Of a stretch of DNA of 54,250 nucleotides, positions 3,557 through 7,421 are shown piece after piece. The stretch is taken from NCBI GenBank assembly GCA_016869145.1, contig VGEU01000012.1, positions 1 through 54,250 of the forward strand, in the 5' to 3' direction. The position numbers and the translations under genes were made by a program. The first letter of the stretch is position 1. The number at the start of each line of letters is the position of its first letter. The notes below the pieces were generated by a model. That model made no database searches. It saw nothing but the letters and a program-made list of their open reading frames with translations, and had not been told where the DNA came from. Source of the DNA: Alphaproteobacteria bacterium (GTDB taxonomy: Bacteria; Pseudomonadota; Alphaproteobacteria; MPNO01; VGEU01).

Positions 3557-4714
3557 ATGGCCTATATAGACGCCGACTCGCATGTCTACGAGGTCGAGGA
3601 GACCTGGGACTACCTCCCGAAGAAGTTCCGCCACCGTCGTCCGATCCCGATCACGGTGCCACGCGACCAGGCGCCTTATATGGGCGTCGACAACGCCTTC
3701 TGGCTGGTCGACGGCAAGGCGATGCAGTGGACGATCGGGCCGGGCACGATCCAGATCGGCTGCCCGCTCACCTCGATCCACGCCGGGATCAAGGAGTTCT
3801 CGGTCGGCAACCAGTCGCTGATGGACGTGCCGGCACGGCTCCGCGATCTCGACCGCGCCGGGGTCGATGTCCAGGTCATCTACTCGACCCTGTTGTTCGC
3901 GCCGATGACGATCGATGATGAGTTCGAGACCGCACTCCAGATCAGCTACAACCGCTGGCTCGACGATCGTTGCGCCGAGGCGCCGCACCGTCTCAAGTGG
4001 TCGGCCGTGATCCCGCTCCGCGATCCCAAGGCGGCCGTGAAGGAGATCTACCGCGTCAAGGACCGGGGCGCCGTGAGCCTGATGTGCTTCGGCACGGTGG
4101 GCGAGAGAATGCTCCATCGGCCCGAGTTCGATCCGGTATGGGCGGCGGCGGCCGAGACGAACCTCCCGATCGCATGCCATGTCGGGTGGCCGACGGATTC
4201 GCTCCGCGCCATGTGCGACGAGCACTCGAGCTCGCTCAACGTCTCGTTCACGCTGCCGCTCCTGATCGGGTTCTATTCCTTCGCCGGCGGCGGCATCCTC
4301 GACCGTCACCCGAAGCTCCGCGTCATCTTCCTCGAGGGCGGCTGCGGCTGGCTGCCGTGGTATCTCGACCGCATGACCCACTACTACCCGGTCGCCGAGT
4401 TCTTCCGCTCCTCGTTCGGGCTCGGGAAGATCACGCGGAAGCCCGCGATCGCCTACAAGGACCGGATCTATCTCACCGCCGAGGCCGACGAGCGGCTCTT
4501 GCCCGAAGTGCTCGCCTATCTCGGCGACGACAACGTGATGGTGTCGGAGGACATGCCGCATCTCGAGGCGCGCGAGGGCTCGGGCGACGAGCTCGCCGAG
4601 CGCAAGGACATCACGGCGAAGCAGAAGGAGAAGATCCTCTTCCACAACCCGTCGCGGTTCTACGGCATCAAGGTGAAGGCCGCGAAACAGGCTCTCCGCG
4701 CCGCCGCCGAGTAG
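3557..4714 (+). CDS. Amidohydrolase-family metal-dependent hydrolase (Amidohydro_2)
   Basis: Predicted cytoplasmic TIM-barrel hydrolase or decarboxylase, 385 aa. The N-terminal metal-binding motif is DADSHVYE (residues 5-12), in place of the HxH of classical amidohydrolases, as in the PF04909 group. Later motifs are ACHVGW, EGGCGWLP and SEDMPH, which normally supply a His ligand and the catalytic Asp region. The start is supported by GGAAGGAGAAC directly before the ATG. It is divergent from the ABC importer and is followed 4 bases later by an SDR gene, so the two are likely co-transcribed. Relatives include aromatic decarboxylases and lactone hydrolases; the exact reaction is unknown. Confidence 0.85.
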   Translation: MAYIDADSHVYEVEETWDYLPKKFRHRRPIPITVPRDQAPYMGVDNAFWLVDGKAMQWTIGPGTIQIGCPLTSIHAGIKEFSVGNQSLMDVPARLRDLDRAGVDVQVIYSTLLFAPMTIDDEFETALQISYNRWLDDRCAEAPHRLKWSAVIPLRDPKAAVKEIYRVKDRGAVSLMCFGTVGERMLHRPEFDPVWAAAAETNLPIACHVGWPTDSLRAMCDEHSSSLNVSFTLPLLIGFYSFAGGGILDRHPKLRVIFLEGGCGWLPWYLDRMTHYYPVAEFFRSSFGLGKITRKPAIAYKDRIYLTAEADERLLPEVLAYLGDDNVMVSEDMPHLEAREGSGDELAERKDITAKQKEKILFHNPSRFYGIKVKAAKQALRAAAE

Positions 4715-4718
4715 CGCC

Positions 4719-5486
4719 GTGGACGTCGGCTCGATGTCGGGCCGCGCCTGCCTCGTCACCAGGGCGGGCTCGGGCATCGCGCGCGAGGCCGCGCTCCTTC
4801 TCGCCACGGAGGGCGTCCGCCTCGCGATCGCCGATCGCAACGCCAAGGGCGCCGAGGACACCGCCGCGACCATCGCGGCGGCGGGCGGCACGGCCGAGGC
4901 CTTCGCGCTCGACGTCGCGGATGCGGCCGCGGTCGGAGCGGTCGTCGCGGCCGCCGAGCGGCGGGTCGGGCCGATCGACTATCTCGTCAACATCGCCGGC
5001 ATCTATCAGTGGATCGCGATCGAGGACATCTCGGACGCCGACTGGCGGCGGATGTTCGCGGTCCACGTCGACGGCACGTTCCACACCTGCCGCGCGGTGC
5101 TGCCGGGCATGATGGCGCGTCGCTTCGGCGCCATCGTCAACACGACCTCGCTGCACGCGCTCCGCGGTCAGGCGCGCGCCGCCCACTACGCCGCGGCCAA
5201 GGGCGCGATCCTCTCCTTCACCAAATCGCTCGCGCGCGAGAAGGCCGCATACGGGATCCGTGCCAACGCGATCGCGCCCGGCCCGATCGACACGCCGTTG
5301 TGGCGCGGCACGATGACCGACGACGAGATCGCCCGCACCAAGACCTCGCGCGCGACGGTGATCCCGCTCGGCCGTCTCGGCGAGGTGAGCGAGGTCGCGC
5401 CGTGGATCGTGTTCCTGCTCAGCCCGGCCGCGAGCTACATGACTGGCCAGGCGGTGACGATCGACGGCGGCGAGCTGATGGCCTGA
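4719..5486 (+). CDS. Short-chain dehydrogenase/reductase with altered glycine motif
   Basis: SDR-fold oxidoreductase, 255 aa from the GTG at 4719; an ATG at 4734 is an alternative start. The catalytic residues look intact: Ser in NTTSLHALRG and YxxxK as HYAAAKGA. NAG appears as NIAG, and the C-terminus has the usual GQAVTIDGG. The cofactor motif is odd: TGxxxGIG reads TRAGSGIA (residues 14-21), so two of the three glycines are replaced. That may weaken nucleotide binding or mean a degenerate enzyme. It lies 4 bases after the amidohydrolase and converges on the next gene with a 7-base gap. The substrate is unknown. Confidence 0.87.
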   Translation: MDVGSMSGRACLVTRAGSGIAREAALLLATEGVRLAIADRNAKGAEDTAATIAAAGGTAEAFALDVADAAAVGAVVAAAERRVGPIDYLVNIAGIYQWIAIEDISDADWRRMFAVHVDGTFHTCRAVLPGMMARRFGAIVNTTSLHALRGQARAAHYAAAKGAILSFTKSLAREKAAYGIRANAIAPGPIDTPLWRGTMTDDEIARTKTSRATVIPLGRLGEVSEVAPWIVFLLSPAASYMTGQAVTIDGGELMA

Positions 5487-5493
5487 GGACGCC

Positions 5494-6486
5494 CTACTCG
5501 GCGTGGCCCGTCTTCTGCGCGAGATCGCTCAGGCCCCGCGCCGGCTCGGCGGAGGCCGCATGCATGCCGGCCGCCTCCCACAGCGCATCGTAGTAGCGCG
5601 CGAGCGCGCGGTTGAAGCGCTCGCTCTCGATCGACACCTCGGCGACACCGAGCTCCTTCAACCGCGCGATGTCGGCCGCCATGCGCTCCTCGAGCGCGGC
5701 CATGCCGGTGATCTCGAGCCGCTTGCCGATCTCGACCAGCATGGTCCGGTCGCCCGCGGCGAGCCGTCGCAAGCGGTCGCCGTTGATGGCGAGCACGAAG
5801 GCGCGGCGCCCGAAGGTCGGACGCAGCATGACGCGGGCATGCTCGTGCCAGCGGAAATCGATCGCGCCGCCGACCGGCCAGGCGACGCCGTCGATCGTGC
5901 CGGCCTGGAGCCCGGCGGCGATCTCGGCGTCGGGCATCAGGACCACGAGGCCGCCGAGACCCTCGATCAGCGGCTGGTAGTTGCGGCTCCCCCGGATTCT
6001 CTGGCCGGCGAGCTCGCCGCCGGCGGAGCTCTGACGCATGAGGAGCTGATAGGCGCCGCTCTCGGCCCGCTCGCCGTGGACGACGGCGAGGAGCTTCAGA
6101 TTGTGGCGCTCGTAATCCTTCTCGAACGCCTCGAACAGCCCGTTGTCGCGCCACGCGACGGGATCGGGCCGCATCGCGTAGGTCGCGAGCGCGAGCGAGA
6201 TCGCGCCGGCGTGAAACGCGGGCGTCGTGAACACGAGATCGAACAGGCCCTTCGAGACCGCGTCGAACTGGTCGGGCGGGCGGACGGCATCGGGACCGGC
6301 GATGCGGACGGTGATCCGGCCGTTGGAGCCGGCGCGGACGCGCTCGGCCAAGTTGGCGACCACGAGCTGCGAGACCGCGAGCGAGGCGTCGAAGGCGTTG
6401 AGGAGGCGGAGCTACGTCTGCGCCGACACCGGCCGCACCAGCATTGCAAGTGCAATGGCGGCCACCCACGCGATACGCCTGATCAT
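5494..6486 (-). pseudogene. TRAP-type (DctP-like) solute-binding protein, interrupted by an in-frame amber codon
   Basis: The frame encodes a signal peptide (MIRRIAWVAAIALAML, then VRPVSAQT), an in-frame TAG at 6412-6414, and then LRLLNAFDASLAVSQLVVAN continuing as a complete DctP-like domain. Both halves are in the same frame and join exactly where a signal peptide should meet the first strand of the mature protein. One nonsense substitution, or one base error, explains this. The domain carries a recognisable substrate-contact region (RGSRNYQPLIEGLGG). A GTG at 6363 could restart translation, but without export or the first strand. No TRAP membrane subunits are in the window. It converges on the SDR at 4719-5486. 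Confidence 0.75.
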
Positions 6487-6623: not shown

Positions 6624-7391
6624 TCAGTGGACAGTCTGGCCGCCGTCGACCACGAACGCCGTGCCATGGACATAGGAGGCGGCATCCGAGGCGAGGAAGA
6701 TCGCCGCGTTCGCGACCTCCTTGCATTCGGCGAGCCGGCCGAGGAGCGCGAGGCGCTTGATCGCATCGCCGTCGACCAGCTTGTTGTCGATATAGCCCTT
6801 CACGCGCGGCGACAGCGTGGCGCCGGGGCAGAGCGAGTTCACGCGGAGCCCCGCCTTGCCGTAGTCGACCGCGAGCTGGCGGGTGAGCGACAGCACGCCG
6901 CCCTTGGCCGCGCAATAGACCGGCATCTCCGGGCTGCCGATGATGCCGAAGGTCGAGGAGACATTGACGATCGAGCCGCCGCCCGGTGCCTTCAGGAGCA
7001 TCGGAATGAACGCCCGGCACATGTAGAAGATGCTGGTCAGGTCGATCGCGATGATGCGGTTCCAGTCGTCGGTCTTGAGCTCGGCGAGCTTGGAGACGAA
7101 ATTGGTGCCGGCGTTGTTGATCAGCGCCTTGACGTGGCCGTGGCGCGCGGCGACGGCGGCGTGGAGGCGCTGCACCTCGGCCTCGACCGAGACGTCGACC
7201 GCGTGGACCTCGCTGCCGGCGCCGTATTTCTCGATCAGCGCCGCGGTCGCGCGGAGCTTCGCTTCGGTGCGTCCGACCAGGATCACCCGCGCGCCGAGCT
7301 CGGCGAGCCCCTCGGCGCAGGCCTCGCCGATGCCCGAGCCCGCACCCGTCACGATCACCGGCGCGCCGTTGAACTTGAGATCAGCGAGCAT
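6624..7391 (-). CDS. Short-chain dehydrogenase/reductase
   Basis: Classical SDR, 255 aa from the ATG at 7389-7391. That ATG follows GGGGAGG by 5 bases; a GTG one codon upstream sits too close to the Shine-Dalgarno. All family motifs are present: TGAGSGIG for the cofactor, NNAG, Ser in NVSSTFG, YCAAK as YxxxK, and FVVDGG near the end. It lies 30 bases downstream of the HCHL-like gene in the same direction, so the pair is probably an operon under the divergent MarR regulator. By context it could oxidise an alcohol, an aldehyde or a 3-hydroxyacyl-CoA made by its neighbour; that is inference. Confidence 0.9.
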   Translation of the reverse strand: MLADLKFNGAPVIVTGAGSGIGEACAEGLAELGARVILVGRTEAKLRATAALIEKYGAGSEVHAVDVSVEAEVQRLHAAVAARHGHVKALINNAGTNFVSKLAELKTDDWNRIIAIDLTSIFYMCRAFIPMLLKAPGGGSIVNVSSTFGIIGSPEMPVYCAAKGGVLSLTRQLAVDYGKAGLRVNSLCPGATLSPRVKGYIDNKLVDGDAIKRLALLGRLAECKEVANAAIFLASDAASYVHGTAFVVDGGQTVH

Positions 7392-7421
7392 CACATCCTC
7401 CCCTCGGCCGGTCGACGGCCG

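Follow-up and report, generated by a model that had tools for sequence, protein, structure and literature searches.

An in-frame TAG interrupts a DctP-type gene

The window, which is the whole stretch of 54,250 nucleotides analysed here, is contig 12 of a draft alphaproteobacterial genome (3.93 Mb in 247 contigs, 99.2% complete, 2.7% contaminated). A gene for a DctP-type solute-binding protein on its minus strand is interrupted by a TAG shortly after the signal peptide, and the features of the locus are as follows.

6624-7394, minus strand: short-chain dehydrogenase (PF13561), 137 bases upstream of the ATG and on the same strand
6415-6486, minus strand: signal-peptide reading frame, 24 codons from the ATG at 6486, ended by TAG (sequence and translation; cleavage site by eye)
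6412-6414, minus strand: in-frame TAG (sequence; no stop there in any of 80 related loci)
6361-6363, minus strand: GTG at codon 42, the earliest start-like codon past the stop (list of open reading frames and sequence)
5497-6411, minus strand: mature part of the DctP-type solute-binding protein, 305 codons, open (PF03480, E 1.3e-10; aligns with the paralogue on contig C49 from its first residue)
5494-5496, minus strand: terminal TAG of the interrupted gene (sequence)
4719-5486, plus strand: short-chain dehydrogenase (PF13561), convergent neighbour

The 24-residue signal peptide is translated as MIRRIAWVAAIALAMLVRPVSAQT (6486-6415, minus strand), and after the TAG the same frame resumes with LRLLNAFDASLAVS... 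and runs from 6411 to 5497 on that strand. The 305 codons past the stop contain no further stop and have a third-position GC of 0.94. Judged by eye, a signal peptide precedes the mature DctP part, though cut off from it by the TAG, and the signal-peptidase site lies between the A and the Q of V-S-A-Q, two residues ahead of the stop. The preliminary description had placed the stop exactly at the signal-peptide boundary; this holds to within two residues of the cleavage site judged by eye. The order it gave, a signal peptide, then TAG, then a DctP protein in the same frame, is borne out by the sequence, the translation and the 305-codon open frame. Both halves do look otherwise intact, with an open frame on either side and a family match. 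Since the frame is intact on both sides of an in-frame stop where homologues have a sense codon, the gene is classed as interrupted.

The part past the stop is a family-7 TRAP solute-binding protein; it matched the DctP family (PF03480) with 41.6 bits against a cut-off of 23.4, while the NCBIfam profile scored 44.1 against a cut-off of 50 and was thus below this stricter threshold. Homology to the paralogue on contig C49 of the same genome begins at the first residue past the TAG. The upstream neighbours are the short-chain dehydrogenase, an enoyl-CoA hydratase and a MarR-type regulator, and on the other side lie the convergent short-chain dehydrogenase, an amidohydrolase and two ABC-transporter permeases. 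The TRAP membrane subunits DctQ and DctM were not found among the seven neighbouring proteins scanned. Membership of the DctP family as such needs no adjacent DctQ or DctM, and proteins of this family normally bear a signal peptide.

Homologues carry ordinary residues at the stop position

No close orthologue was found when GTDB contigs were scanned with the protein. Scanning them with an alignment gave 80 related loci, the best at 39% identity. In genomes of the same order, only the C49 paralogue from the genome itself was recovered at E 1e-55, and a search for relatives returned no other genome of the same family. The stop site was therefore compared with distant homologues only, none closer than 39%.

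None of the 80 loci has a stop at the place equivalent to the TAG; the residues found there are T, D, E, N, Q and others. In L136 the match begins further in, and in L089 it begins near a contig end; neither has a preceding stop. The closest homologues, C49 (38%) and L079 (39%), read A-Q-T-S-E before Leu or Ile, with GAG adjacent. These two, which have glutamate at the site, carry one extra residue there. Two paralogues on contig C1 read A-Q-T-K and so have lysine at the site. Position 6363 is the first base of the GTG that starts the downstream open reading frame, and the possibility raised earlier, that orthologues simply start there without a signal peptide, is not the case in the homologues.

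L079, the closest homologue in the database, lies on a small contig of a record titled as a Klebsiella pneumoniae metagenome-assembled genome. This title probably does not fit the contig, because the tree groups L079 with proteins of the present genome. L034, from genome G022 of the same order, is a distant DctP match (26% identity) with one TAG within the matched stretch.

TAG is an ordinary terminator in this genome

One explanation offered for the stop was that UAG is decoded as an amino acid, by reassignment across the genome or by a suppressor tRNA. The sample comprised the window and 40 stretches of 20 kb each, 854,250 bases in all. Its 526 training frames terminate in TGA (349), TAG (153) and TAA (24), and the interrupted DctP gene itself ends in TAG. 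Genome-wide, no internal stop was seen within 42 DctP, 54 short-chain dehydrogenase and 79 ABC-ATPase matches, where the DctP match of the window gene starts past its own stop. The interrupting TAGs stand opposite different residues, Glu in the nearest homologues of both interrupted DctP genes described here and Ser or Thr in an acetolactate-synthase-like gene, and TAA and TGA interrupt genes as well. Both hallmarks of amber reassignment, TAG as a rare terminator and TAG as the only stop inside genes, are thus absent.

A suppressor tRNA was looked for with Rfam models, which found 38 tRNAs (30 + 8 loci), none with a CTA anticodon. The set is incomplete, with Tyr, Asp and Ile tRNAs missing from it despite 99% completeness of the genome, so a CTA tRNA could have been missed. 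Terminator usage and the mixture of interrupting stops led to the rejection of genome-wide amber recoding. Decoding of this kind is not supported, whether genome-wide or tRNA-based, and appears extremely improbable. The two other origins proposed for the stop, a nonsense mutation and an assembly error, fit all the findings.

Other genes in the genome are interrupted by all three stop codons

A coding-potential scan for split genes in the 854 kb gave 58 raw stops with coding-like sequence on either side, many of which, on inspection by eye, were taken for ordinary adjacent genes that share a frame. Twenty-four stops were taken further (22 plus those in two DctP genes), and 20 protein stretches were read with X at the stop. 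Outside the DctP genes, twelve stops interrupt a recognised family; six are TAG, five are TAA and one is TGA.

TAG: DUF547 protein, MBOAT acyltransferase, acetolactate-synthase-like, reductive-dehalogenase-like and TPR protein (twice)
TAA: GlgB (L266 14638, contig C6, minus strand), LonB-like protease, zinc dehydrogenase, AsmA-like and saccharopine-dehydrogenase-like
TGA: CcoO (L267 6007, contig C7, plus strand)

In homologues from the PDB, the TGA of CcoO corresponds to Trp, the TAA of GlgB to Phe and the TAG of the acetolactate-synthase-like gene to Ser or Thr. Both stops in L277 were counted for lying within a run of TPR repeats, taken as a whole and not repeat by repeat. Other candidates were not counted among the 12. 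L257 13777 and L264 4324 have no family match, the match at L276 18889 ends two residues past the stop, and L291 5134 has repeats on one side only. Different or separate domains lie on the two sides of L290 9872, L275 18221, L275 13840 and L281 1765. L291 3832 and 4432 were outside the domain-checked set.

Some of these stops lie near one another. On contig C32, L291 3832, 4432 and 5134 (plus strand; TAG, TGA and TAG) fall in one long TPR-type frame, which is probably a decayed gene. In L264 (contig C4, minus strand), the TAG at 5353 is inside the MBOAT acyltransferase, and another TAG, at 4324, lies about 1 kb on, within a following frame that has no Pfam match. The TAA codons at L294 7350 and 6160 (contig C35, minus strand) are in two nearby genes, the AsmA-like and the saccharopine-dehydrogenase-like one.

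The 14 best-supported stops, which include those of two DctP genes, comprise eight TAG, five TAA and one TGA. Given the codon usage, 67-70% of one-step nonsense changes are expected to yield TAG. Compared with random one-step changes, the excess among the 14 is in TAA, not TAG (Monte Carlo p of 0.10, 0.04 and 0.01 under three transition weights). The wider list of 20 stops is clustered, with 5 close pairs against 0.63 expected, a value reached in 7 of 20,000 random placements. Clustering is only weak in the strict list of 14, with 2 pairs, a value reached in 701 of 20,000 placements. Taking 12 to 17 stops for the sample gives a rate of 4.8e-5 to 6.8e-5 per codon. An in-frame stop as such is not special in this genome, and a lone one where a signal peptide ends is just a single event out of many.

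A second DctP gene carries TAG at the same place

One other DctP gene has its stop in a matching position.

L290 12928-13953 (contig C31; also in L076), plus strand: second TAG-carrying DctP gene

It reads ...LPARAQS, TAG, IKIGLVTIND..., so the stop comes directly past the signal peptide. Its intact tandem neighbour, 65% identical, reads AQS-E-IKIGLLTINE, with GAG at the site. Two of the 42 DctP genes, from distant subfamilies, thus carry TAG two residues beyond the cleavage site, and each of the remaining 40 has a frame free of stops over at least 330 codons. The seven binding proteins of PF13458 have open frames of 369-479 codons, a count that does not cover their upstream ends. The motif A-Q-x-TAG occurs at 46 places in the genome, and among the 30 that were read, a signal-peptide-like opening combined with a long coding frame past the stop was seen in the two DctP genes only. 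In the 854 kb scan as well, these two genes are the only clean cases of a signal-peptide-like opening before a stop. At L291 3832 the TAG comes some way past the leader, in the frame with two more stops.

This recurrence could mean that in some DctP genes of the lineage the amber codon is kept as a leaky export gate, the window gene and the C31 gene being two independent cases. Most ribosomes would then release the signal peptide only, and a small share would read through and make the binding protein. At the measured rate, the chance of a second DctP stop is 0.002-0.003 at the same codon and 0.010-0.014 within five codons, figures that are post hoc, as the coincidence was tested after it had been seen. 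The C31 gene has 9 private changes compared with 11 in its intact neighbour and shows no acceleration, a further point for such a gate. Against such a gate, no relative shares either stop. None of the 80 loci related to the window gene has one (identity of at most 39%). The C31 protein has 79 matches in 143 genomes, 77 of which begin at its residue 1 or 2. Of those 77 frames, its own alone falls short of 330 codons; all 61 from other genomes reach that length, as counted from the matches listed. The two TAGs are also followed by unlike bases, CTC CGC in the window gene and ATC AAG in the C31 gene, with no common sequence, and the window gene looks relaxed. That another DctP gene has its stop there too is less expected than a lone stop, and this curiosity weakly raises the leaky-stop reading. 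Overall, we think it improbable that the window TAG is a maintained leaky stop, and a gate used by several DctP genes of the lineage appears just as doubtful.

A recent nonsense mutation is the most likely explanation

The most likely explanation is that the TAG is real and arose recently, by nonsense mutation of one of the roughly 42 DctP-type genes, with a product that is probably lost and a loss that is probably tolerated (probability of roughly 0.6). A base error comes next. With the stop in place, translation would make the 24-residue signal peptide and end at the TAG. A restart at the GTG 16 codons on would give a product without a signal peptide, which could not be exported. The interrupted gene is probably inactive, judging from its sequence, because there is no start for 16 codons and the restart product could not be exported.

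The protein of the window gene has the longest end branch in a tree of 24 rows, 1.22 compared with 0.52 for each of its two nearest relatives, and the tree program warns that the placement of this long-branch row is unsure. Its composition is also unusual. The frame past the stop has been kept open in the window gene, yet the branch is long; the C31 gene is not accelerated. The interrupted gene is apparently a fast-evolving, dispensable paralogue. Its loss would probably be tolerated, considering its fast evolution, the lack of a TRAP membrane subunit among the seven neighbours and the many paralogues (42 matches to PF03480 in the genome). Further support for mutation comes from the rest of the sample, where the twelve domain-interrupting stops are of three kinds and the wider list of 20 is clustered.

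Another possible explanation is that the TAG reflects a wrongly called base, or a minority strain variant that entered the consensus of this fragmented draft, and that the gene is intact in the organism. An assembly in 247 contigs with 2.7% contamination may hold base errors. Single stops also occur in otherwise pristine conserved genes such as GlgB and CcoO, a pattern more in line with error or strain variants than with decay, and the C31 gene, with the same stop and no acceleration relative to its intact neighbour, is not what simple decay predicts. The long branch of the window protein itself argues against an error, as does the clustering of the wider stop list by gene or neighbourhood, although poor coverage could also cluster errors. 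We regard a base error or strain variant as a possible but tentative second explanation, and a nonsense mutation as the preferred one.

Relation to known in-frame stops

The window stop has the look of common gene breakage, or of a base error, and not of a new reading of the code. In the part of their survey available to us, Belinky et al. (2021, PMC7918605) report that in-frame stops within bacterial genes that are intact in other respects are widespread and, for the most part, short-lived, with TAG, TAA and TGA all occurring. The window gene resembles these nonsense-interrupted genes, being intact apart from one in-frame stop. It differs in that the stops kept in that survey, as described there, were shared by at least two species, whereas the window stop is common to no relative. 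An earlier stop-codon survey (PMC1914089) states, in the portion available, that species-specific in-frame stops cannot be distinguished from pseudogenes and sequencing errors. The window gene fits the descriptions of in-frame stops in the available parts of both sources. It also shares an in-frame TAG in an open frame with the pyrrolysine-type amber recoding treated in the same portion of PMC1914089, and differs from it in the lack of a CTA tRNA among the 38, the common use of TAG as a terminator and the ordinary residues in homologues.

Our literature search returned no paper that combines amber, signal peptide, readthrough and solute-binding protein, and a search on pseudogenes in metagenomes found no matching paper. 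The title of a 1989 paper by Jalajakumari and colleagues is said to concern the bypass of an amber codon in CS3 pilus biosynthesis in E. coli. The likeness to the window gene lies in an in-frame amber within a gene set for surface or exported proteins. The difference is that bypass is given there, by the title, while the window gene belongs to an unrelated family and is known from its sequence alone.

As an ordinary nonsense codon, the TAG would mean little beyond correct annotation, which calls for an interrupted label on the gene and for not listing this genome under amber reassignment. A leaky stop placed where a signal peptide ends would, if true, offer an easy means of tuning how much of an exported protein is made. 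What is noteworthy is only that TAG recurs at this position in two DctP genes of distant kinship, a small unexplained coincidence.
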